Shown piece by piece: positions 12,604 through 50,912 of a stretch of 64,000 nt of DNA; within the stretch, counting starts at the first letter, position 1, and every line of letters starts with the position of its first letter. The notes under the pieces were generated by a model. That model worked only from the letters and a program-made list of their open reading frames with translations. It searched no databases and was not told the DNA's origin. Origin of the DNA: Fibrobacter sp. UWB5 (lineage in GTDB: Bacteria; Fibrobacterota; Fibrobacteria; Fibrobacterales; Fibrobacteraceae); NCBI RefSeq assembly GCF_002210295.1, contig NZ_MWQH01000001.1:496001-560000 (forward strand), written 5' to 3'. A program made the position numbers and the translations under genes.

Positions 12604-13677
12604 ATGGAATTGTTGAAAAAAATAGGATTGCTCTTGTTTGTTTTCGTGACGCTTGTGGCCGCGGCAACGGAAGATGCGTCCGAAGACGATTTTCAACGCT
12701 ATTCCGTGGTCCCGATTTTGGGCTATACCGAAGAGACGGAATTCCAGATTGGCGTGATGGCGCTGCTGTTTTTGCGCCCCGACGAACCGAAGGGCAATGT
12801 CCCCGAAATCGGCCTTACAGCGTATGGTTCGACGCGCGGTCAGTTGCAGTTGCAACTGGAACCGTACTACTACCTGTTCCACGATCAAATCAGTATTTGG
12901 GGGTTGCTCAAGTATCAAGATTGGGTGGCTGGTTACTATGGTCGCGGCAACGATCCGGATATCGATATTTTCACTAATTTTAACCGCAAAAAATTCCAGT
13001 ATGGCACGCGAATCGAATCGAGAATCGGACTTCCGAAGGCGTTCAAGTACGGTGTCGAAGTCCATGCGGAATACACCGAAATCGATTTCGAAGAAGGAAA
13101 AATAACGGATTTGCCGGATGACCATTCCGGTTGGCGTAATGGTGCGGGCTATTTGTTTGGGGTTGATACTCGCGACAATATCAACTGGACGCGTCATGGC
13201 TTTTTAGCCCAGTGGCAGCAAATGTTCTACAGCGATCTCCTTGGGGACTACACTTTTGATGTAGAATCTTTGGACCTGCGCGGTTACTCGACTTTAACTC
13301 AAACGACAACGATGGCGCTAGGTTTCTTGTGGCAGCGTGCCGGTGGCGACGTGCCTTTCGACATGCTTGCAGGGCCCGATGGAATCTGTCGGTTCCGCGG
13401 TGTAGAAAGCCTGTATTTTGGCGACAACCAGGCGGTAATCATGCAGGCCGAAGTCCGTCAGTTTATCTGGTGGCGCCTGGGTAGCCATGTATTTTTCGAA
13501 GGCGGAAAATCGGGTCGCTATTTTAGTGAACTTGTTCGTAACGACTGGCACCGGTCTGTTGGCGCAGGCGCTCTTTTGGGCCTGAATTTAAAGCAGAACC
13601 TGTTTGCCCGTGCCGATTTCTCTTGGGTCGATTTTGACCATTTAGGCCTGTCTTTCTACGTCCGTCAAGCATTTTAG
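12604..13677 (+). CDS. Omp85/D15-type outer-membrane beta-barrel protein without POTRA domains
   Basis: 357 aa with a signal peptide (residues 1-20). The protein is a series of amphipathic strands ending in VRQAF with a terminal Phe, the usual outer-membrane barrel signature. The segment CRFRGVESLYFGDNQAV matches the conserved (V/I)RG(F/Y) region of the bacterial surface antigen (D15/Omp85) barrel, and GGKSG follows where the family has a Gly-rich turn. There is no room for POTRA repeats, so it is a barrel-only member and not BamA itself. Cargo unknown. It lies just upstream of the ACP/ketosynthase genes but has its own promoter-like element. Confidence 0.8.
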   Translation: MELLKKIGLLLFVFVTLVAAATEDASEDDFQRYSVVPILGYTEETEFQIGVMALLFLRPDEPKGNVPEIGLTAYGSTRGQLQLQLEPYYYLFHDQISIWGLLKYQDWVAGYYGRGNDPDIDIFTNFNRKKFQYGTRIESRIGLPKAFKYGVEVHAEYTEIDFEEGKITDLPDDHSGWRNGAGYLFGVDTRDNINWTRHGFLAQWQQMFYSDLLGDYTFDVESLDLRGYSTLTQTTTMALGFLWQRAGGDVPFDMLAGPDGICRFRGVESLYFGDNQAVIMQAEVRQFIWWRLGSHVFFEGGKSGRYFSELVRNDWHRSVGAGALLGLNLKQNLFARADFSWVDFDHLGLSFYVRQAF

Positions 13678-13781: not shown

Positions 13782-13789
13782 TATCTTTG
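13782..13789 (+). promoter_or_regulatory. TAnnTTTG promoter element of the ACP gene
   Basis: TATCTTTG, 25 nt before the ACP ATG; the same octamer (CTATCTTTG as 9-mer) recurs upstream of the next gene at 14130. Confidence 0.5.
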
Positions 13790-13814: not shown

Positions 13815-14054
13815 ATGAACGAAATGAAAGAAAAACTCAAGGCCTTCTTTATGTCTGATCTCGGTGTTGATGGCGACGTGCTTCAGTTTGACACTCCGCT
13901 TTTCGGTGAAGAAATTGGCCTGGATTCTGTGGATTCCCTTGAAATCATCTCCTTCGTTGACAGCAACTTCGGCGTGTCCATGACTGGCGTTGCCAAGGAA
14001 AACTTCCAGAGCATCGATACGATCGCTGCTTACATCGAAGCTCATAAGGCCTAA
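13815..14054 (+). CDS. Acyl carrier protein of the ketosynthase cluster
   Basis: 79 aa acidic helical protein. The phosphopantetheine attachment site is Ser38 in GLDSVDSLEI. ACGAGG lies before the start. It is followed by its own terminator (14062-14091) and then by a ketosynthase fusion, FabG and FabZ, so it is likely the dedicated carrier of that assembly line; its separate terminator would allow it to be made in excess. It could also be the housekeeping AcpP, but the usual fabD/fabH/fabF neighbours are not here, and the sequence around the Ser (DSVDSLE) differs from the typical DSLDTVE of AcpP. Confidence 0.9.
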   Translation: MNEMKEKLKAFFMSDLGVDGDVLQFDTPLFGEEIGLDSVDSLEIISFVDSNFGVSMTGVAKENFQSIDTIAAYIEAHKA

Positions 14055-14061
14055 AGAATTT

Positions 14062-14091
14062 AGCCGGGGACACGTTCTCGGCTCTTTTTTT
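14062..14091 (+). terminator. Terminator after the ACP gene
   Basis: AGCCGGGGA-CACGT-TCTCGGCT followed by CTTTTTTTG, a good stem with T-tract between the ACP gene and the ketosynthase gene. Confidence 0.8.
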
Positions 14092-14129
14092 GTTTTTTCG
14101 CATCCTGGAGCTTGGCGATAGGATGCATC

Positions 14130-14137
14130 TATCTTTG
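14130..14137 (+). promoter_or_regulatory. TAnnTTTG promoter element of the ketosynthase operon
   Basis: TATCTTTG lies 8 nt before the ATG at 14146. It follows the ACP terminator, so it is the likely promoter of the ketosynthase-FabG-FabZ genes. Confidence 0.5.
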
Positions 14138-14145
14138 GAAAGAAT

Positions 14146-16542
14146 ATGACCCCTAATGACAAGCGTTGTGTAGTTACAGGTTTAGGCGTCATTTGTGCCG
14201 TCGGTAACAATGTCGAAGAAACTTGGAAGAGTGCCCTGGAATCGGTTTCCGGCATTCATAAGACCACTTCTGTTGATACGGTGAACTGCTATGCGGACTT
14301 GGCTGCCGAAGTCAAGTGCGACACCCTTGATGAAATTGACGCTCCCGAAGAAAAGGACCGCGTCTCGAAACTTTGCATCAAGGCTGCAAACGAAGCTTTG
14401 GCCGATGCAGGACTCAAGAACTTTGGCGATGACCAGCGCGTGAGCGTGGTGATCGGAAGTTGCGTGGGTGGCGTTCTTTCAATTGAACAGTATCATCAGC
14501 ATGGTCGCGACGCTTCTGAAATTGCCAAGATGCCGATCGCTTCGATCGCCTCCCAGGTGGCCGAAACTTGTGGTGCTGGCGGTATTGTCACGAATGTGGC
14601 GAACGCTTGTGCTGCCGGTACGATTTCGATTGCGGTGGCTTGCGACTTGATTCGCGCCGGCAAGGCTGACGTTGTCATTGCGGGTGGTGCCGATTCTTTT
14701 GCCTCGGTGCCTTATTCCGGATTCCTTTCTCTGCATGCGCTTGATGAAAACGGCTGCTCTCCGTTCAACCGCTGCAACGGCATTACGCTCGGCGAAGGCG
14801 CCGGCATCGTGATTGTCGAATCTTACGAACATGCTCAAAAGCGCTCGGCCAAGCAGTATTGCGAAGTGCTCGGTTCTGGTGTCACCAGCGATGCAAACCA
14901 CATTACCGCTCCGCGCGAAGATGGCCTTTGCCTTAAGGAAGCGATTAACCGCTCCGTCAAGAATTCCGGCATTGCAAAGACTGACATCGGTTACATCAAT
15001 GCCCACGGTACGGGTACGGGCAAGAACGATAACGCCGAAATGACGGCCTTCAAGGCCTACTTTGGCGAAGAAAACCCGACGGTGAGCGTGAGCTCCACCA
15101 AGGTGCTTACGGGCCACTGCCTGGGTGCCGCTGGTGCCATCGAAGCCGTCTTTAGCATCAAGGCTCTTACCACCGATACGGTGCTTCCGACCTTCCCGTA
15201 TAGCGAAGAACAGTCCGCCGCCCTCAAGGAAAAGGTCGGCGACATGGACTTTGTGCAGAACAAGGCCCGCCATAAGGAACTCAAGTGCGTGCTGAGCAAC
15301 AATGTGGCATTCGGTGGTACGAATGCCGCAATCGTCTTCTCGAAGGAAGCGGGTAACGTGTCTGCCCAGAGTGCAGCAGGCAAGAAGATTGCCGTGACGG
15401 GTCTTGGAATTGTATCGCCGCTCGGCAACAGCAAGACCGCTTACGTCGAAGCCGTGAAGGCCGGCAAGAAGCCCGAGTCCGCCTCGGTGCGTTCGACAAT
15501 CGCTCTTGACGACTACAAGGAACTTGGCATCAAGATGGCCTTCTACCGCAAGCTCGACAATTTGGGCCAGCTCCAGACGGTTTCGGGCATGCGTGCGCTG
15601 CAAGATGCAAACTTCAAGGTTTCCGATCAAAACGCTATGGATATCGGTATCATCGTGGGAACCAGCGAAGGCGGTCTTGGCGCCACTTACGATTTTGAAG
15701 AACTGATTGCTGAACTCGGCAATGCCGGCGGTTCCGCTTTCAAGTTCCCGCACACCGTTTACAACGCGGCTGGCGGTTACCTCTCTATTTGTTCGGGCAT
15801 CAAGGGCTACGGTGTGACCATTACCACCGGTCCGCTTTCTGGCCTCGATAGCATCGGCTACTCCATGAACGTGATTCACGACGGTCAGGAACAGGCCATG
15901 ATGGCTACCGGTACCGACGAAAACCTGCCGATTATTACGGAATTTGCCCAGAAACTTGGCGTGGCCGCAAACGACGTGGTCGCTCCTTACGCAAATGCCG
16001 AAGGCTTTGTGGTGGGCGACGGCTCCGTGTCGATTCTGCTCGAAGAAGAAGAATATGCCAAGGCCCGCGGCGCCAAGGTTTACTGCTACGCTCTCGGATT
16101 CGGCCATGGCCGCAAGAATGTGAAGTTCGGTAAGCTCTCGGGTTCTGACGAAGCTTTGGACAAGGCCATTGCCGATGCCCTGGCCGATGCCGGCATTACG
16201 GCAGCCGACGTGGATGCTGTTTGCGGTTTTGCCAACGGCTGCAAGAAGATTGACGACATTGAAAAGGGTGCCCTTAAGCGCGTGTTTGGCGAAAAGCTTG
16301 CCGCGATGCCGCTCTTCGAAGTCAAGGAACGCACCGGTGAAGGCCGTGCGGGGTCTGCTGCCCTTGCCGCTGCCGAAGCCGCTCTCCTTTTGAGCGGTGA
16401 ACTTGCAAACGACAACGCCTACTTTGTGGCGGCAGACGGTTCTGTCTCGGCAAAGACGGCTGAATCGGCAAATCTCAAGAAAATTTTGGTTATCTCTTAT
16501 GCGACGGGCGGTTCTTACAGCGCAGTCGTGTTCGGAAAATAG
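14146..16542 (+). CDS. Ketosynthase fused to a catalytically dead ketosynthase (KS-CLF-like)
   Basis: 798 aa, twice the size of FabF, made of two thiolase-fold ketosynthase domains. Domain 1 (about 5-400) keeps the triad: Cys155 (NACAAGT), His287 (NAHGTGTG) and His324 (LTGHCLGAAG). Domain 2 (about 413-798) starts again with KKIAVTGLGIVSPLG but has lost all three: Pro563 (TTGPLSGLDS), Phe695 (CGFANGCKK) and Glu732 (RTGEGRAGS) occupy the aligned positions. An active KS paired with an inactive KS is the arrangement of type II polyketide KS/chain-length-factor dimers; here both are on one chain. The neighbouring ACP, FabG and FabZ support an iterative assembly line. Product unknown; an aryl-polyene- or polyunsaturated-type chain is inferred from the absence of an enoyl reductase. 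Confidence 0.92.
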   Translation: MTPNDKRCVVTGLGVICAVGNNVEETWKSALESVSGIHKTTSVDTVNCYADLAAEVKCDTLDEIDAPEEKDRVSKLCIKAANEALADAGLKNFGDDQRVSVVIGSCVGGVLSIEQYHQHGRDASEIAKMPIASIASQVAETCGAGGIVTNVANACAAGTISIAVACDLIRAGKADVVIAGGADSFASVPYSGFLSLHALDENGCSPFNRCNGITLGEGAGIVIVESYEHAQKRSAKQYCEVLGSGVTSDANHITAPREDGLCLKEAINRSVKNSGIAKTDIGYINAHGTGTGKNDNAEMTAFKAYFGEENPTVSVSSTKVLTGHCLGAAGAIEAVFSIKALTTDTVLPTFPYSEEQSAALKEKVGDMDFVQNKARHKELKCVLSNNVAFGGTNAAIVFSKEAGNVSAQSAAGKKIAVTGLGIVSPLGNSKTAYVEAVKAGKKPESASVRSTIALDDYKELGIKMAFYRKLDNLGQLQTVSGMRALQDANFKVSDQNAMDIGIIVGTSEGGLGATYDFEELIAELGNAGGSAFKFPHTVYNAAGGYLSICSGIKGYGVTITTGPLSGLDSIGYSMNVIHDGQEQAMMATGTDENLPIITEFAQKLGVAANDVVAPYANAEGFVVGDGSVSILLEEEEYAKARGAKVYCYALGFGHGRKNVKFGKLSGSDEALDKAIADALADAGITAADVDAVCGFANGCKKIDDIEKGALKRVFGEKLAAMPLFEVKERTGEGRAGSAALAAAEAALLLSGELANDNAYFVAADGSVSAKTAESANLKKILVISYATGGSYSAVVFGK

Positions 16543-16566
16543 TGCTTAGGTAGAAGGAGCTTGAAT

Positions 16567-17298
16567 ATGAAAGTAGCTTTGGTAACAGGTGCATCTAAGG
16601 GAATCGGCAAGGCTTGTGCCTTGCGCCTTGCTCGCGATGGCTATACTGTCGTGGTGAACTACTCCAGTTCCGATGAGGCTGCCCAGCAGACTTTGGACCA
16701 GATTAAGGCCGAAGGTGGCGACGGCATGATTTACAAGGCGAATGTCGCCGACCTTTCTCAGGTGAAAGTCATGATCCGCGAAGTCTTCAAGGCATACGGT
16801 CGCATTGACGTGCTCGTGAACAACGCCGGTATCGTTCGCGACGAATACCTGATGATGATGAATCCCGAAACCTTGGACAAGTGCTTCGACCTGAACGTGA
16901 AGGGTTATTTCTACTGCGCACAGCAGGTGGCCGTGAAGATGTACAAGCAGAAGTCCGGCGTGATCATTAACATGAGCTCCGTTTCTTCGAAGTTCGCTCT
17001 CGCAGGCCAGGCTGTTTACAGCGCCACGAAGGGCGCCGTGAATTCCCTGACGCAGACGCTTGCCAAGGAACTCGGCGGTTTCGGTATCCGCGTGAATGCC
17101 GTGGCTCCGGGCTTTATCGCTACCGAAATGATCGAAGCGATTCCTGAAGAAACCCGCAAGGGCTACCTCGAAAAGATTCCTCTAAAGCGTTTTGGTTCTG
17201 CCGACGAAGTCGCCAACATTGTTTCTGCCTTGGCTTCTGACCAGTTCGCCTATGTGACTGGCCAGGTGTTCGTGCTCGATGGAGGTCTTTCTCTATGA
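16567..17298 (+). CDS. fabG: 3-oxoacyl-ACP reductase (SDR, FabG type)
   Basis: 243 aa from ATG at 16567, chosen over TTG at 16561 because AAGGAGC sits 7 nt upstream. Motifs: TGASKGIGKA (NADPH binding), NNAGIVRDE, the catalytic Ser in NMSSVSS, YSATK (Tyr and Lys), and APGFIATEM. It reduces 3-ketoacyl-ACP to 3-hydroxyacyl-ACP. It follows the KS fusion by 24 nt and overlaps the next gene by four bases, so it probably belongs to the same assembly line; a housekeeping role is possible as well. Confidence 0.93.
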   Translation: MKVALVTGASKGIGKACALRLARDGYTVVVNYSSSDEAAQQTLDQIKAEGGDGMIYKANVADLSQVKVMIREVFKAYGRIDVLVNNAGIVRDEYLMMMNPETLDKCFDLNVKGYFYCAQQVAVKMYKQKSGVIINMSSVSSKFALAGQAVYSATKGAVNSLTQTLAKELGGFGIRVNAVAPGFIATEMIEAIPEETRKGYLEKIPLKRFGSADEVANIVSALASDQFAYVTGQVFVLDGGLSL

Positions 17299-17741
17299 TG
17301 AATATTTACGAAATCAGCGAAAAGATTGCTCAGCGTCCGCCGTTCCAGATGATCGAAAAGGTCACGGAACTGGTGCCGAATGAATCTGCCGTGGGCATCA
17401 AGAATGTGAGTGTGAACGAGCCGTACTTTACCGGTCACTTTCCGGGCACCCCGATTATGCCGGGCGTGCTCATTGTGGAAAGCTGCGCTCAGCTCTGCTC
17501 GCTCGTGATTGAAAAGCCTGCCGAAGATTTGGAAAAGAATCTCTATGTGCTTTTGAAGATTGACGGATTCAAGTTCGTGAAGCCGGTGATTCCGGGCGAC
17601 CAGCTTGAAATCTCTGTCAAGAAGACGAAGGAAGGCGGCGTGTTGGTCGGTTTTGACTGCATCGTGAAAGTGAACGGCAACGTTCATGCCAAGGGCGCCT
17701 TGACGTTCACAAGCATCCCGAAGGAAAGTTTAGGAAAGTAA
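17295..17741 (+). CDS. fabZ: 3-hydroxyacyl-ACP dehydratase (FabZ-like hotdog protein)
   Basis: 148 aa, FabZ length. QRPPFQMIEKV and the catalytic segment GHFPGTPIMPGVLIVE (His48, Glu62) are typical of FabZ. It removes water from 3-hydroxyacyl-ACP to give trans-2-enoyl-ACP. The start codon overlaps the fabG stop (ATGA). With KS, KR and DH present and no enoyl reductase visible in the cluster, double bonds could be retained in the product. Confidence 0.93.
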   Translation: MMNIYEISEKIAQRPPFQMIEKVTELVPNESAVGIKNVSVNEPYFTGHFPGTPIMPGVLIVESCAQLCSLVIEKPAEDLEKNLYVLLKIDGFKFVKPVIPGDQLEISVKKTKEGGVLVGFDCIVKVNGNVHAKGALTFTSIPKESLGK

Positions 17742-17746
17742 TGGCT

Positions 17747-17806
17747 AGTGTGTAATGTGTGATGACTAATGATAATTTCACATCTCACATTCCACATTTC
17801 ACATCT
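17747..17806. repeat. Intergenic CACAT-type repeat, copy 1
   Basis: The spacer holds GTGTAATGTGTGATG followed by TTTCACATCTCACATTCCACATTTCACATC, i.e. iterated CACATN units facing partly complementary GTGT/ATGTG units. A related stretch lies at 27134-27189. It lies between the fabZ-like gene and the acyltransferase gene. Confidence 0.55.
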
Positions 17807-17831
17807 CCTCTGCCTCTGAATTTTATATATC

Positions 17832-18536
17832 GTGAACGATAAAAAGAAAAATATTTTTGTCGAAAGTTTTATGCGGCTCTTTATGGTGGTAGTCATCTAC
17901 ACCGTGCGCGTCTATTTGCTTGTTTGGTACCGCCCGAAGGTGACCTTTGTCGGTAACACGGTAAAGTCTCCGCGCTTGAAGACGCCCTCGGTGATTATTG
18001 CAAACCATACGAGTATGTGGGATCCCCTCATGATGCTCGCTATCTTTTTCCATCACAAAAGCATCGTGGTGGCTAAAGACCAGATTGAAGACCCGCATTT
18101 TAGTTGGGCGCTGACCCGCGTGAAGTGCGTGATTCCTTGCGACCGCTTTAACATGGACACCGAATGGGCCTTGCTTGCCAAACGTGAACTGGAAAAGGGA
18201 AACAACGTCATTATTTTCCCTGAAGGCAAGTGCCGCTATGACGGCTTGTTGAACGAATTCAAGACGGGTTTTGCGTTCCTTGCCCGCAGTACCGGCGCGC
18301 CAGTGCTTTCGGTGGGAATCGACGGCATTTATAAGCGAGGCCATCGCACGCAGATTGTAGTGAGCGAACCCGAAAAGATTGAACGCGTGAAGGGTATTCC
18401 TTCTTCAAAGCACTTGGCCGAACGCAGCGAATACTTCCGACAGAAAGTCTGGGGTCTCAAGCAACAGGCGCTTGGCGTCACTAATGCGCCGGAGCTCCCG
18501 GTCGCGGCTGAAACGCCCGAAGAGGTGCAGGCATGA
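17832..18536 (+). CDS. 1-acyl-glycerol-3-phosphate acyltransferase family protein (PlsC-like)
   Basis: 234 aa. One N-terminal membrane segment (about 12-32), the acyltransferase motif NHTSMWD (His59, Asp64), FPEG (129-132) and VLSVGI follow as in LPLAT/PlsC enzymes, which move acyl groups from acyl-ACP or acyl-CoA onto a phosphate-bearing lipid or related acceptor at the inner membrane. The GTG start at 17832 has no good SD but is preceded by TATATATC. It overlaps the patatin gene by four bases. Being directly after KS/KR/DH genes, it may transfer the product of that line; general phospholipid synthesis is the alternative. Confidence 0.85.
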   Translation: MNDKKKNIFVESFMRLFMVVVIYTVRVYLLVWYRPKVTFVGNTVKSPRLKTPSVIIANHTSMWDPLMMLAIFFHHKSIVVAKDQIEDPHFSWALTRVKCVIPCDRFNMDTEWALLAKRELEKGNNVIIFPEGKCRYDGLLNEFKTGFAFLARSTGAPVLSVGIDGIYKRGHRTQIVVSEPEKIERVKGIPSSKHLAERSEYFRQKVWGLKQQALGVTNAPELPVAAETPEEVQA

Positions 18537-19378
18537 AGACGGGGTTGGTGTTAGAGGGCGGTTCTCGTCAGACCATGTTCAGTGCAGGCGTGATTGACAC
18601 CTGGCTCGACGAAGGGATTGATTTTAATTACGTGGCAGGTGTTTCTGCCGGAGCCCATGCGGCGGTGAACTTCATTACGCGCCAGCAGGGCCGCTTGCGT
18701 TTTATTGTGCTCCCGACTCGTTTGCAGAAAGGCAAAAAGTGGGCGAGCAAGTTCATCGGAATCCAAAAGGAATTCCATGCTTTGAACTATCTGGCTGCCG
18801 ATGGCGAAATGCCGCTTGATTTTGAAGCGTACCGTAATTCCAAAATCGAATGCGAAATCGGACTAACCTGTTGCGAAACGGGACGCGCCGAATTCAAGAG
18901 TGAAAAGAACGACAAGAAGCGCTTGCTGGACTTGATCAGCGCCAGTTGCGCCTTGCCCATGATTTTCCCGATGGCGGAACTCGACGGCAAGCATTATGCC
19001 GACGGTTGCATTACCGCCGCAATACCGTTCGAGCGTGCGTTTGAAAAGGGCTGCGACAAGGTGGTAGCCATTTCGACCCATTATCCGGGCGAAGCGGTGA
19101 CGGATTTCCGCAAGTACCGTGCGATTCTGAACCCGATGTACAAGCGCAAGTACCCGGATTTGTTCCGTGCGCTCATGATTCGCCTGAAACGCTACGAAAA
19201 AATGTTCGTACGCATGGAAAAACTGGAAAAAGAGGGCAAACTCTTCTTAATTCGCCCCATTATCGACTTGTGCGACCAGTTCGATACCAACATGGACAAG
19301 ATGAATGAGTCCTATGAACATGGCGTTGAGATGGCAAAACGTAGCCTGGATGACCTCAAGGCGTTTTTAGAAATATAA
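18533..19378 (+). CDS. Patatin-like phospholipase
   Basis: 281 aa. Oxyanion region LEGGSRQ near the N-terminus, nucleophile Ser38 in GVSAG, and the catalytic Asp157 in YADGCI form the patatin Ser-Asp dyad; the size fits the short bacterial RssA/YjjU-like proteins. It would hydrolyse acyl esters of phospholipids or related lipids, at the membrane face. ATG overlaps the stop of the acyltransferase gene, so both are translated together. With the acyltransferase it could remodel or release the acyl product of the upstream genes (inference). Confidence 0.9.
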   Translation: MKTGLVLEGGSRQTMFSAGVIDTWLDEGIDFNYVAGVSAGAHAAVNFITRQQGRLRFIVLPTRLQKGKKWASKFIGIQKEFHALNYLAADGEMPLDFEAYRNSKIECEIGLTCCETGRAEFKSEKNDKKRLLDLISASCALPMIFPMAELDGKHYADGCITAAIPFERAFEKGCDKVVAISTHYPGEAVTDFRKYRAILNPMYKRKYPDLFRALMIRLKRYEKMFVRMEKLEKEGKLFLIRPIIDLCDQFDTNMDKMNESYEHGVEMAKRSLDDLKAFLEI

Positions 19379-47226: not shown

Positions 47227-48141
47227 TTACAGTATCGAAAAATCGCAATTGTCTGGATCATAGCGTAGGCGACTATTGATATTAATTCCGTCGATATGAG
47301 CCATGTCTTCTGCATCTAATTCAAAATCGAAAATATTCAGATTGCTTTTTTGATGTTGTTTACTCAAGCAACGAACTAGTGGAATAACTCCGTTTTGTAC
47401 GTGCCAACGTAAAATGATCTGAATGAAATTTTTATGGTACTTTTGCTCTAGACGTTTTAGTAGGGGTAGTCTTACAAGACGGTCGTCGTAGCGAGCAAGG
47501 GAGGTGTATGCCTCGACGAGAATGTCCTGAGATTTATAGAATTCAATAAGAGGCTTCTGAGTGAACAGCGGGTGGATTTCAAATTGACCGATTTCGGGAC
47601 GGTGTTTGCAAATAGAAAAAATCGCTTCTAAATGATGCTGATGGCAATTGGCGACTCCCAGATGCTTTACATATCCTTCTTCGTACAATTTTTCCATTTC
47701 GCGCCACGTGTCGAGATATAAATCTGTTACAGGCCAATGGAATTGTAGAATGTCGACATAATCTGTTCCGAAGCCTTCAAGACATTTGAAGAACTCTTCT
47801 CGAACAGAATGATTTCGTTGGGCCGCGTTGCTGACACGAGTTGTTAACAGAAGCTCAGATCGTGCAATTCCAGATTTTTTTATGGCTTTGCCGATTAGAG
47901 AGCCGTCTCCGTAAGCAGAAGAATAGTCTATAAGGCGAAAGCCTTGCTGCAATGCACTTGATACAGAATCAATGTACTTGTTTTGCGCTAAAGGTCGTCT
48001 ATAAAGCTTGTTTTGGACTTTGTCGAGAAACAGGAAAATACCTTTTTTCTGTTTCTTCATTTTTGGGGAATATCCCATACCCCCTGGACCGAATCCAATT
48101 TGAGGAATTGTATTGTTTTTTAAAAGGCCTTCCAGTTTCAT
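47227..48141 (-). CDS. Aldo/keto reductase with Lys-to-Arg change in the catalytic tetrad
   Basis: 304 aa. The AKR tetrad aligns as Asp72 (LIDYSSAYGDG), Tyr77, Arg102 (LLLTTRVSNAA) and His135 (ILQFHWPV); position 102 is Lys in active family members. There is also an unusual basic insertion (about 25-52, KMKKQKKG...) near the substrate side. NADPH-binding region is at the C-terminus (VIPLVRCLSKQHQKSNL). Its place between ketoacyl-ACP synthase and flippase genes suggests action on the same acyl or sugar intermediate. Activity may be altered or lost. Confidence 0.88.
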   Translation of the reverse strand: MKLEGLLKNNTIPQIGFGPGGMGYSPKMKKQKKGIFLFLDKVQNKLYRRPLAQNKYIDSVSSALQQGFRLIDYSSAYGDGSLIGKAIKKSGIARSELLLTTRVSNAAQRNHSVREEFFKCLEGFGTDYVDILQFHWPVTDLYLDTWREMEKLYEEGYVKHLGVANCHQHHLEAIFSICKHRPEIGQFEIHPLFTQKPLIEFYKSQDILVEAYTSLARYDDRLVRLPLLKRLEQKYHKNFIQIILRWHVQNGVIPLVRCLSKQHQKSNLNIFDFELDAEDMAHIDGININSRLRYDPDNCDFSIL

Positions 48142-48142
48142 C

Positions 48143-49141
48143 TTAAAACCTCAATATCGTTCCGCCCCAGCTTAAACCCACTCCAAAACCTGCAATCATG
48201 ACCTTCATTCCGGTTTTAATTGTTCCATCATTTAGGCTGTTCTTGAGACCAATCAATATTGTTGAAGAAACAGTGTTGCCTGTGTTTTCAAGGTTGATGT
48301 AGAATTTGTCTTTAGGAAGGCCGCACACCTTGCGTATAGTGCTCAACATAAACTTGTTTGCCTGGTGAAAAACAAAATAATCAACTACGTCTTGGTCCAA
48401 TTTGTTTCGATACAGTACATTCTGCATCATTGGTGGAACTATATCTAAAGTAAAATTGAATACATCTGAGCCGTTCATGTAGAGATAATCATCTCTACGA
48501 ACATGACCTTCCTCGTCAACGGATTCTTTGCCGTTGGGTTTTGGTTCGCGAGCTGCACCTGTTTTCAAAATCAGACTTTCTGCGCCACCGCCATCTGTGC
48601 CCAAGTCAAATTCACCAATTTCTGCAAAACCTTCTGTTGAAATCAAGCATGCTGCGGCGCCGTCGCCGAAAATGGAACGGTTGCTTTTGTCTTGTGGATG
48701 CAGATATTTTGTGTATGTTTCCGCAGTCAGTAACAATATATTCTTCGCAATATTTGCAGCAACTAGTCCCTTGGCAATTGCTATGCCATAAATGCAGCCC
48801 GAACAACCAAGATTGTAATCGAATGCTCCAGCCGTTTTAGGAATTCCCAGTTTATGCTGGAGTATGCATGCTGTTGAAGGTAGTGCGTAATCTGAACTTT
48901 GCGTACACAACAACACAAAATCGATAGACTTCGGATCTATGGAATATTCTTCGAATAGCTTGCGGGCAGCCTTTTCGGCTAGATCACCAGCAGTTTCGCT
49001 ATTACTTGACAAATGTCGTGAGTTCACACCGACCTTCGCGGCGACCTTTTCGACGCTCCATTCGGGAAATTCCTTGACAAGTTCCTCGTTCGTAAGAACG
49101 TGTTCTGGGAGATAATACGATATCGCTTTAATAAACGCCAT
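48143..49141 (-). CDS. Ketoacyl-ACP synthase III, copy 2
   Basis: 332 aa. FabH-like thiolase fold with an intact triad: Cys113 (NLGCSGCIYG), His259 (VFHQANKFM), Asn289 (NTGNTVSS). Such enzymes condense an acyl-CoA with malonyl-ACP, or transfer acyl groups from ACP to other acceptors. About half identical by eye to the neighbour at 49141-50148, with which it shares one base at the junction. Both are in a polysaccharide locus beside an ACP and an SDR, so they likely make an acyl decoration. Two paralogues may form a heterodimer or do two successive steps. Confidence 0.92.
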   Translation of the reverse strand: MAFIKAISYYLPEHVLTNEELVKEFPEWSVEKVAAKVGVNSRHLSSNSETAGDLAEKAARKLFEEYSIDPKSIDFVLLCTQSSDYALPSTACILQHKLGIPKTAGAFDYNLGCSGCIYGIAIAKGLVAANIAKNILLLTAETYTKYLHPQDKSNRSIFGDGAAACLISTEGFAEIGEFDLGTDGGGAESLILKTGAAREPKPNGKESVDEEGHVRRDDYLYMNGSDVFNFTLDIVPPMMQNVLYRNKLDQDVVDYFVFHQANKFMLSTIRKVCGLPKDKFYINLENTGNTVSSTILIGLKNSLNDGTIKTGMKVMIAGFGVGLSWGGTILRF

Positions 49142-50148
49142 TATTCATCCACGCCAAAATAAAGTATTGTTCCTGCCCAGGAAAGACCAACTCCAAATCC
49201 AGCAAGCATGACTTTTGCGTTATTCTTAATAAGTCCTTGCTTTAAACATTCTTTTAAAGCTATTGGCACTGTCGATGATGTCGTGTTCCCGGTGCTTTCA
49301 ATGTTGACGTAGAACCGGTCTTTTTCCAAACCGCAAACTTTTCTTATCGTGTTCAGCATATATTTGTTTGCTTGATGGAATACAAAATAGTCAACATCGC
49401 TTTGCTGCAAGGAATTCCTTTCTAGAGTTTCCTTGATGAGCGTCGGCAGCCTTTCTACAGTAAAGCCGAAAACGGAGGCCCCATCCATATAGAAGAAATC
49501 GTCTCTCCGCGTATTTCCTTCGGAATCGACCATTTCTTGGCCTGTTAATTCAAGTTGGCGGGCGGCACGATTTTTTACGATTAGCATGTCGCCACCGGAA
49601 CCATCCGTTCCTTTGACCAAGGAGCCGATCTTAGCAAGCCCCGATTTGGAGATTACACTAGCTGTTGCCGCTTCCCCGAATAAGATCCTGTTGTTATCCT
49701 GAGGATGCATAAATCTTGTTATTGTATCTCCCGTCAACAGCAAGATGTTCTTTGCGAGTCCGCTTTCCACAAAGCTATTGGCTATTCCGAGACCATATAC
49801 ATAACCAGAACAGCCTAAGTCAAAGTCGAAGGCTCCAGCCGTGTTGGGTATGCCTAGTCTTGATTGAATGGAACATGCGGTAGGTGGTAAAAAATGGTCC
49901 GGAGTCTGTGTTGCAAAGATTACGAAATCTATTTCTTCGGGAGAAATTCCGTATTCAACGAACAGTGCCTTTGCTGCCTCAACTGCCATGTCCCCTGCAG
50001 TTACGGATGGAGCCGCGATATGTCGAATGTTGACACCGACACTTTTCGCAATTTTGGAAACTTCACAGTTGATTAGCTCTTTTTGCAAATCATCATTTGA
50101 AAGTTCTTTGGGTGGCAGGTAATAAGACAAAGCCCTTAAAAAAGCCAT
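49141..50148 (-). CDS. Ketoacyl-ACP synthase III, copy 1
   Basis: 335 aa with triad Cys113 (DLGCSGYVYG), His258 (VFHQANKYM) and Asn288 (STGNTTSS), so it should be active. GAGATGA precedes the start, 11 nt after the SDR stop. Same start (MAFLRALSYYLPP versus MAFIKAISYYLPE) and size as the downstream paralogue; a tandem duplication. Unlike housekeeping FabH it has no fabD/fabG-type housekeeping neighbours. Substrate not deducible from sequence. Confidence 0.92.
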   Translation of the reverse strand: MAFLRALSYYLPPKELSNDDLQKELINCEVSKIAKSVGVNIRHIAAPSVTAGDMAVEAAKALFVEYGISPEEIDFVIFATQTPDHFLPPTACSIQSRLGIPNTAGAFDFDLGCSGYVYGLGIANSFVESGLAKNILLLTGDTITRFMHPQDNNRILFGEAATASVISKSGLAKIGSLVKGTDGSGGDMLIVKNRAARQLELTGQEMVDSEGNTRRDDFFYMDGASVFGFTVERLPTLIKETLERNSLQQSDVDYFVFHQANKYMLNTIRKVCGLEKDRFYVNIESTGNTTSSTVPIALKECLKQGLIKNNAKVMLAGFGVGLSWAGTILYFGVDE

Positions 50149-50159
50149 TGTTCATCTCC

Positions 50160-50912
50160 TTATACAAGAACGCCTTCTCCACCGCCGGAGATATTGATGC
50201 TTTCTCCCGTCATCCAGGAGGATGCTGCGCTTAACAGGTAAATAACCAAATTTGCGATGTCTTCAACTCTGCCAAAACGTTTCAATGGATATTTTTGTTC
50301 TGCTTCACGCAGAGTATCTTCGTCAAGAACTTTCGTGATAAGTTCTGTCCACACCATGCCGGGGCAAATGCAGTTTACCCGAATAAGTCTAGGCGCTAAT
50401 TCAAGAGCGAGGCATTTCGCATACGAAATAAGGGCACCCTTAGATGCGCTATAGATGGCATTGCCCATAGAGGGGGATTCTGCGGCTCTAGAGGCTATGA
50501 ATACGATGGACGCTCCCTTATTTATTTTTTTTGAAGATAGCAGGGAGGCTTGCAATAACATTGGAGCGTTCATATTTGTACGCATTACAAAATCTATATC
50601 AGATTGCGTGATGTTTTTACAAGGGACCCTGTTTGCAACACCAGCACAATGAACAACGCCGTCTAAAGAAGGCATTGCATTTACCAATCCATTTAAAGAG
50701 GATGAATCCAGAATATCTGCAGGTGCGACAATGTGATTGCCGCTAGGCATTTCCTGAAATGTTTCTTGCAGCCGTTCTACATTCCTGCCATTCAAGACGA
50801 TGGATGCGCCCATTCTAGCGCAGGCGATAGCAACTGCTTTGCCTATACCGGATGAAGCTCCTGTAACAAGAATGTTTTTATTCTCTAATGAAAATGGATT
50901 GAAACTGTTCAT
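50160..50912 (-). CDS. Short-chain dehydrogenase/reductase (FabG-like)
   Basis: 250 aa. TGASSGIGKAVA (NADP binding), CAGVANRVP in the place of NNAG, catalytic Ser in FIASRAAES (replaced region reads 'ASRAA', the Ser being shifted) and YSASKGA (Tyr, Lys). It lies between the ACP and the ketoacyl-ACP synthases, with 3 nt to the ACP gene, so it probably reduces the 3-ketoacyl-ACP that they make, giving a 3-hydroxyacyl group. Confidence 0.9.
   Translation of the reverse strand: MNSFNPFSLENKNILVTGASSGIGKAVAIACARMGASIVLNGRNVERLQETFQEMPSGNHIVAPADILDSSSLNGLVNAMPSLDGVVHCAGVANRVPCKNITQSDIDFVMRTNMNAPMLLQASLLSSKKINKGASIVFIASRAAESPSMGNAIYSASKGALISYAKCLALELAPRLIRVNCICPGMVWTELITKVLDEDTLREAEQKYPLKRFGRVEDIANLVIYLLSAASSWMTGESINISGGGEGVLV

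Follow-up and report, generated by a model that had tools for sequence, protein, structure and literature searches.

The gene cluster at positions 13815-19378 raises the question of which acyl chain it makes, and whether it is the ordinary fatty-acid synthase of its host or a dedicated pathway for an unsaturated lipid. The stretch of DNA analysed, hereafter the window, covers 64 kb (C1:496001-560000) of the 3.36 Mb genome of Fibrobacter sp. UWB5.

Gene content of the UWB5 locus

Six genes are found on the forward strand, where a preliminary description had placed them, all scoring above the Pfam curated cut-off. The first encodes an acyl carrier protein (ACP) of 79 aa (13815-14054; PP-binding, 31.2 bits), with a GLDSVDSLE motif and Ser38 as the predicted phosphopantetheine site; its top NCBIfam match, PRK09184, is under that model's cut-off. 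It is followed by a fused ketosynthase-pseudoketosynthase (KS-CLF) of 798 aa (14146-16542), recognized by profile, residue and AlphaFold/Foldseek evidence. The next two genes overlap by 4 bp and match the profiles of a FabG-type ketoreductase of the SDR type (KR; 16588-17298), with a YxxxK motif, and of a 148-aa FabZ-type dehydratase (DH; 17295-17741), with GHFPG and Glu motifs. For FabG, the ATG at 16588, with AAGGAG immediately upstream, is more likely to be the start than the TTG at 16561. The last two genes encode a PlsC-like acyltransferase of 234 aa (17832-18536; Pfam Acyltransferase, 76 bits; HX4D and FPEG motifs) and a patatin-like lipase with GxSxG and DG motifs and a C-terminal DUF6363 (18533-19378, by profile match). 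Their overlap, already noticed from the sequence, is of 4 bp (18533-18536). Other PlsC-family proteins are also encoded in the genome.

The domain calls agree with the earlier view of a condensing, reducing and dehydrating set with a dedicated ACP and without enoyl reductase (ER), and neither an ER nor a malonyltransferase or FabH is present in the operon. The KS-CLF had been listed as well, and both KS-fold halves are indeed there, but on one 798-aa ORF and not as two genes.

Between the ACP and KS-CLF genes, a terminator-like hairpin of 9 pairs with a T tract (14062-14083, forward strand) matches the consensus, and the ACP may have a transcript separate from the rest of the operon; this is a hint only, and terminator-like sites as a class show no enrichment over shuffled sequences. 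The word TATCTTTG lies shortly upstream of the ACP and KS-CLF starts (13782-13789 and 14130-14137) and has 6 copies in the window against a mean of 2.0 in shuffles; it may be a promoter element resembling the TAnnTTTG of Bacteroidetes. Upstream of the ACP there is also a gene for an Omp85-like beta-barrel protein of 357 aa (12604-13677, forward strand), whose Pfam Omp85 score of 19.5 bits is below the cut-off of 24. It occupies this place in fewer than half of the 23 Fibrobacter loci compared below, and in F. intestinalis as well, and its association with the operon is possible but unproven.

The fused ketosynthase

The KS-CLF is a single continuous ORF with two KS-fold halves. Half 1 retains the ketosynthase residues C155, H287, K319 and H324, while half 2 has P563 at the place of the Cys and F695 and E732 at the places of the two His. 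Among 20 aligned Fibrobacter proteins, neither the half-1 catalytic residues nor Pro563 vary, and the motif around Pro563, TTGPxSGLDSIGY, hardly does, which points to selection for a non-catalytic role of half 2. The Treponema proteins described below also have Pro, Phe and Glu at these places, and the Lachnospira eligens protein has Ala at the Cys place and retains the Phe and Glu. Classical chain-length factors carry a Gln in place of the Cys. The substitutions in half 2 fit the pattern of a chain-length factor, although without this Gln.

The AlphaFold model (mean pLDDT 74.9, pTM 0.81) is weak at residues 505-564, around the half-2 site. The top Foldseek match, and the best one spanning both halves, is the KS-CLF didomain of PfaC (PDB 6riw; E 4.5e-41; TM 0.70 by query length). 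By score, the KS half has FabF as a nearer relative than the ketosynthases of known type II polyketide synthases (PKSs), which leaves room for a specialised fatty-acid synthase. In the tree, the KS halves form a 100/100 clade of their own on a long branch, with a weak backbone, and the CLF half clusters with the CLF of a cyl-like cluster from Priestia megaterium (support 91/90), so that the two halves point to no single kinship among the KS-CLF fusions. The Fibrobacter fusion bears on the relation between fusions of the PfaC and cyl types.

Fatty-acid genes elsewhere in the genome

With an ACP, a KS, FabG and FabZ in one operon, the locus could be taken for the host's primary cluster for fatty-acid synthesis, an idea that the preliminary description had set aside because of its gene layout. 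We searched for other fabF, fabG and fabZ genes, whose absence would speak for that idea, and further copies were found: FabD-FabG-AcpP (C1:659.8-661.8k), with plsX and a probable rnc close by, two FabF-like genes on C10 and C6, and a separate FabZ within an lpx-type cluster (C6:174k). A housekeeping type II synthase should hold the only or primary fab genes and be present in all relatives; this operon is also missing from good-quality Fibrobacter genomes. On both grounds we reject the idea, whose probability we regard as negligible.

At C6:57k (L014, 8791-10727), outside any fab cluster, the third KS of the genome is paired with a type II thioesterase. The plsX-fabD-fabG-acpP region (C1:653-662k, L091) is without fabH, and the four PF08545 matches in the genome all fall within two polysaccharide-like clusters. 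One of these is in the window (47227-50912), with a tandem FabH-like pair, an SDR and an aldo/keto reductase-like gene; the similar set at C1:586-590k (L016) has FabH-like pairs, SDRs and LuxE/LuxC-like genes. Both probably provide acyl groups for sugars. The FabH-like genes at 48143-50148 were considered as starter enzymes of the operon and rejected, since they belong to a polysaccharide-like cluster 30 kb away.

Distribution in Fibrobacter and other phyla

From 61 Fibrobacter genomes, 38 contain the KS-CLF with 78 to 100% identity (in one case in two pieces). It was not found in the other 23, some of which are incomplete MAGs and several of which are 99% complete; none of the eight KS-CLF-negative genomes tested has the FabZ of the operon. 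The gene set is small and, within the genus, dispensable. A full-length KS-CLF ortholog is also present in F. intestinalis ATCC 43854 (82%). Presence and absence require at least 5 changes on the FabF gene tree, so that the distribution is not the effect of one clade. In other Fibrobacterota examined, only KS-CLF relatives of about 30% identity were found.

Comparison of gene order across Fibrobacter, as had been recommended, showed ACP-KSCLF-FabG intact in 23 of 23 loci, FabZ next in 22 and PlsC-patatin linked in 19, being unlinked in the other 4. An order kept across 23 loci indicates that the arrangement is not due to chance. FabD is found upstream on the other strand in 8 loci, and a carboxyltransferase likewise in 10. 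The malonyltransferase is absent from the operon, as had been said, but genes for malonyl supply adjoin the operon in some Fibrobacter, and in Lachnospira FabD, AccD and AccA do.

The system had been suggested to belong to Fibrobacter, which does not hold, since Treponema and Lachnospira have it in common. Full-length KS-CLF orthologs were found in rumen Treponema (67-75% identity), in Eubacterium-type genomes (61%) and on a 627-kb plasmid of L. eligens ATCC 27750 (60.9%), and the ACP is 65-74% identical to its Treponema and Eubacterium counterparts. In Treponema, ACP-KSCLF-FabG-FabZ is often followed by a flavodoxin-type FMN protein and PlsC, with patatin in three loci, and some genomes retain the six-gene set. 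In L. eligens the order is ACP-KSCLF-FabG-FabZ-FabD-AccD-(AccA)-flavodoxin-PlsX; no PlsC-patatin pair adjoins the synthase there and PlsX is present instead, another step from acyl-ACP to phospholipid. We found no recognisable ER gene in the clusters of the three phyla. Between Fibrobacter and one Treponema (L135), the KS-CLF is 74% identical against 58% for FabF, and in the tree the Fibrobacter KS halves fall within those of Treponema. Horizontal transfer between phyla, in either direction, is the simplest reading.

The flavodoxin-type FMN protein, of FMN_red/Flavodoxin_2 fold, is linked to the synthase in all three phyla, a partner that is not visible from the 64-kb window alone. It lies directly 3' of the operon in 4 Fibrobacter loci, and in UWB5 it is unlinked (C4:250897). 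Among 46 Fibrobacter genomes, it occurs in 29 of 29 with the KS-CLF and in 2 of 17 without it (Fisher p 2.7e-10, uncorrected for phylogeny). A patatin ortholog is likewise present in 29/29 positive genomes, even where unlinked, and in 1/17 negative ones. The exceptions to co-occurrence are G014, with a completeness of 74%, and G034, with 81%. Together with the presence of acyltransferase and lipase genes beside the synthase in several Treponema, this bears out the earlier proposal that the two enzymes are partners of the pathway.

In three Fibrobacter loci (L047, L055, L066), genes for MlaD, an ABC ATPase and an ABC_trans_aux lipoprotein are found 3' of the flavoprotein gene, downstream of patatin. 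An MCE/Mla-type lipid transporter as part of the system is suggestive, with too few loci to claim it.

Comparison with known synthases

Highly reducing type II PKSs combine an active KS with an inactive KS homologue, as the UWB5 protein does, and here also KR, DH and ACP are encoded with the KS-CLF in a cluster without an ER gene. Cores of this kind make the polyenes of aryl polyene systems (PMC8041823), and in cyl an ACP, FabG, FabZ and KS without ER make granadaene, a polyene of 12 alkenes (PMC6985545). The aryl polyene clusters (E. coli CFT073, L096; ApeO/ApeC, ApeQ, ApeI/ApeP) share with the Fibrobacter locus a KS and CLF, a FabG-like KR, a FabZ-like DH, an ACP, a lysophospholipid acyltransferase and the lack of ER. 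However, in Fibrobacter the KS and CLF are fused, there is one ACP instead of two and one ordinary FabZ, and acyl-ACP synthetase, MMPL exporter, LolA, glycosyltransferase and methyltransferase are absent from the locus. No acyl-ACP synthetase, ammonia lyase or second ACP was found in the operon or in the flanks of the relatives' loci, and the UWB5 locus has neither an aryl ligase nor a glycosyltransferase nor an exporter. We reject membership in the aryl polyene family given the absence of aryl ligase, second ACP, MMPL and LolA at the locus.

The cyl-like cluster on pBM500 of P. megaterium encodes its KS as an 809-aa KS-CLF fusion, like that of Fibrobacter, with identities of only about 36% (KS) and 28% (CLF). 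The conserved core of cyl includes CylE, CylF and CylA (PMC6985545). None of these three was seen in the operon or in the Treponema and Lachnospira clusters, and cyl membership was rejected too; in comparison with cyl, the Fibrobacter locus lacks CylE, the GcvT-like CylF, CylA/B, CylJ and the PPTase, and has PlsC-patatin instead.

The PfaC KS-CLF (6riw) resembles the Fibrobacter protein in carrying an active KS and an inactive CLF on a single chain, at 16% identity. Pfa, in contrast, belongs to the multidomain type I systems and brings an AT, tandem ACPs, DH-DH and a TIM-barrel ER of its own, whereas the Fibrobacter enzymes are separate single-function proteins, with no PfaA/PfaC megasynthase, tandem ACPs or PfaD. 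The products of PUFA synthases end up in membrane lipid. In NodF/NodE of Rhizobium, a dedicated ACP and KS make a special multi-unsaturated acyl chain that is transferred by a dedicated acyltransferase. The KS of such a NodF/NodE-like pair is about 32% identical to that of Fibrobacter; NodE, however, consists of one KS and has no CLF half, and the Nod acceptor is a chitooligosaccharide.

Proposed pathway

We suggest that the operon encodes a dedicated iterative type II synthase without ER, whose multiply unsaturated acyl chain is loaded on a glycerolipid, and give this reading a probability of about 0.6. What the genes encode, which catalytic residues are kept, and how the genes are ordered, spread and co-occur are directly established; the reaction sequence, the kept double bonds and the lipid acceptor are what we infer. 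The KS half would condense malonyl units onto a chain carried by the operon's own ACP, with the dead half 2 as a built-in chain-length factor. FabG would reduce every beta-keto group and FabZ would take off water. KS, CLF, KR, DH and ACP without ER make up the core of a highly reducing type II PKS, which yields polyenes in the aryl polyene and cyl systems. As the set has no ER, every cycle would leave its double bond in place, leading to a multiply unsaturated (polyene or PUFA-like) acyl-ACP. PlsC would then move the chain to a lysophospholipid, a glycerophospholipid being the acceptor to which PlsC, or PlsX in Lachnospira, points. Patatin could strip an ordinary acyl chain to yield that lysophospholipid, which would make it a deacylation-reacylation pair with PlsC, or else turn the product over. 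The flavodoxin-type FMN protein would perform some redox step.

Several points weigh against this explanation: a housekeeping ER could serve the chain in trans, the co-occurring flavoprotein might reduce part of the double bonds, the KS half scores nearer to FabF, the locus lacks the aryl ligase, glycosyltransferase and exporter named above, and PlsC and patatin are unlinked in 4 of the 23 loci. In a dissociated system resembling PUFA synthases, the flavoprotein or a housekeeping ER would act in some cycles, and the product would be a partly saturated or mono- or oligo-unsaturated membrane fatty acid and not a conjugated polyene. PfaC is the top structural match over the whole length of the KS-CLF, the ER of PUFA synthases depends on FMN (PMC13311796), the FMN protein co-occurs with the KS-CLF in 29/29 genomes and is linked in three phyla, and PlsX and PlsC suggest incorporation in phospholipid. 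On the other hand, the fold of this flavoprotein is not the TIM barrel of the FabK/PfaD type, and the operon lacks the DH pair or isomerase that PfaC has. To our knowledge, no enoyl-ACP reductase has the FMN_red/Flavodoxin_2 fold. We consider such a product unlikely. Even less probable is a conditional or specialised module of ordinary fatty-acid elongation, for instance one selective for a starter or an acceptor. It would rely on the housekeeping ER, and its saturated chains would serve to acylate the membrane or lipoproteins. FabF is the nearest relative of the KS half by score, and the Lachnospira version, with ACC, FabD and PlsX, resembles a near-complete fatty-acid synthase; against this, the dead fused second half marks KS-CLF enzymes, and in none of the three phyla does the cluster have a recognisable ER gene.

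We found no account of the operon itself in the literature searched, which comprised open-licence papers. Beyond the ER-less synthase proposed for UWB5, we put forward, tentatively and at slightly less than even odds, an undescribed compact type II lipid pathway with a fused KS-CLF and a flavodoxin-type FMN partner, shared horizontally by anaerobic gut bacteria of three phyla (Fibrobacterota, Spirochaetota and Bacillota), the human commensal L. eligens among them, in which a polyunsaturated or polyene chain is made without oxygen and put in membrane phospholipid. If so, abundant anaerobes of the rumen and the human gut would have in common an uncharacterised pathway for unsaturated or polyene lipids, passed from phylum to phylum, and an oxygen-independent route to multiply unsaturated acyl chains. 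The minimal synthase (ACP, fused KS-CLF, KR and DH) should be easy to reconstitute, and cultured F. intestinalis ATCC 43854 and L. eligens ATCC 27750 might contain a new membrane lipid or pigment.

Other clusters in Fibrobacterota

In two loci of other Fibrobacterota (L072, 6588-12709; L075, 7324-13421), a B12-binding radical SAM protein is fused to a KS-CLF (1263 and 1258 aa, respectively), adjoined by a second KS-CLF fusion (777 and 774 aa), with FabG and FabD nearby; L075 also has an ACP and a GcvT-like gene. We regard this as a separate, unusual cluster. A further locus (L067, 4369-12732) contains separate FabG, FabZ, KS and CLF genes with two phytoene-dehydrogenase-like genes, being another polyene- or ladderane-like cluster within the phylum.
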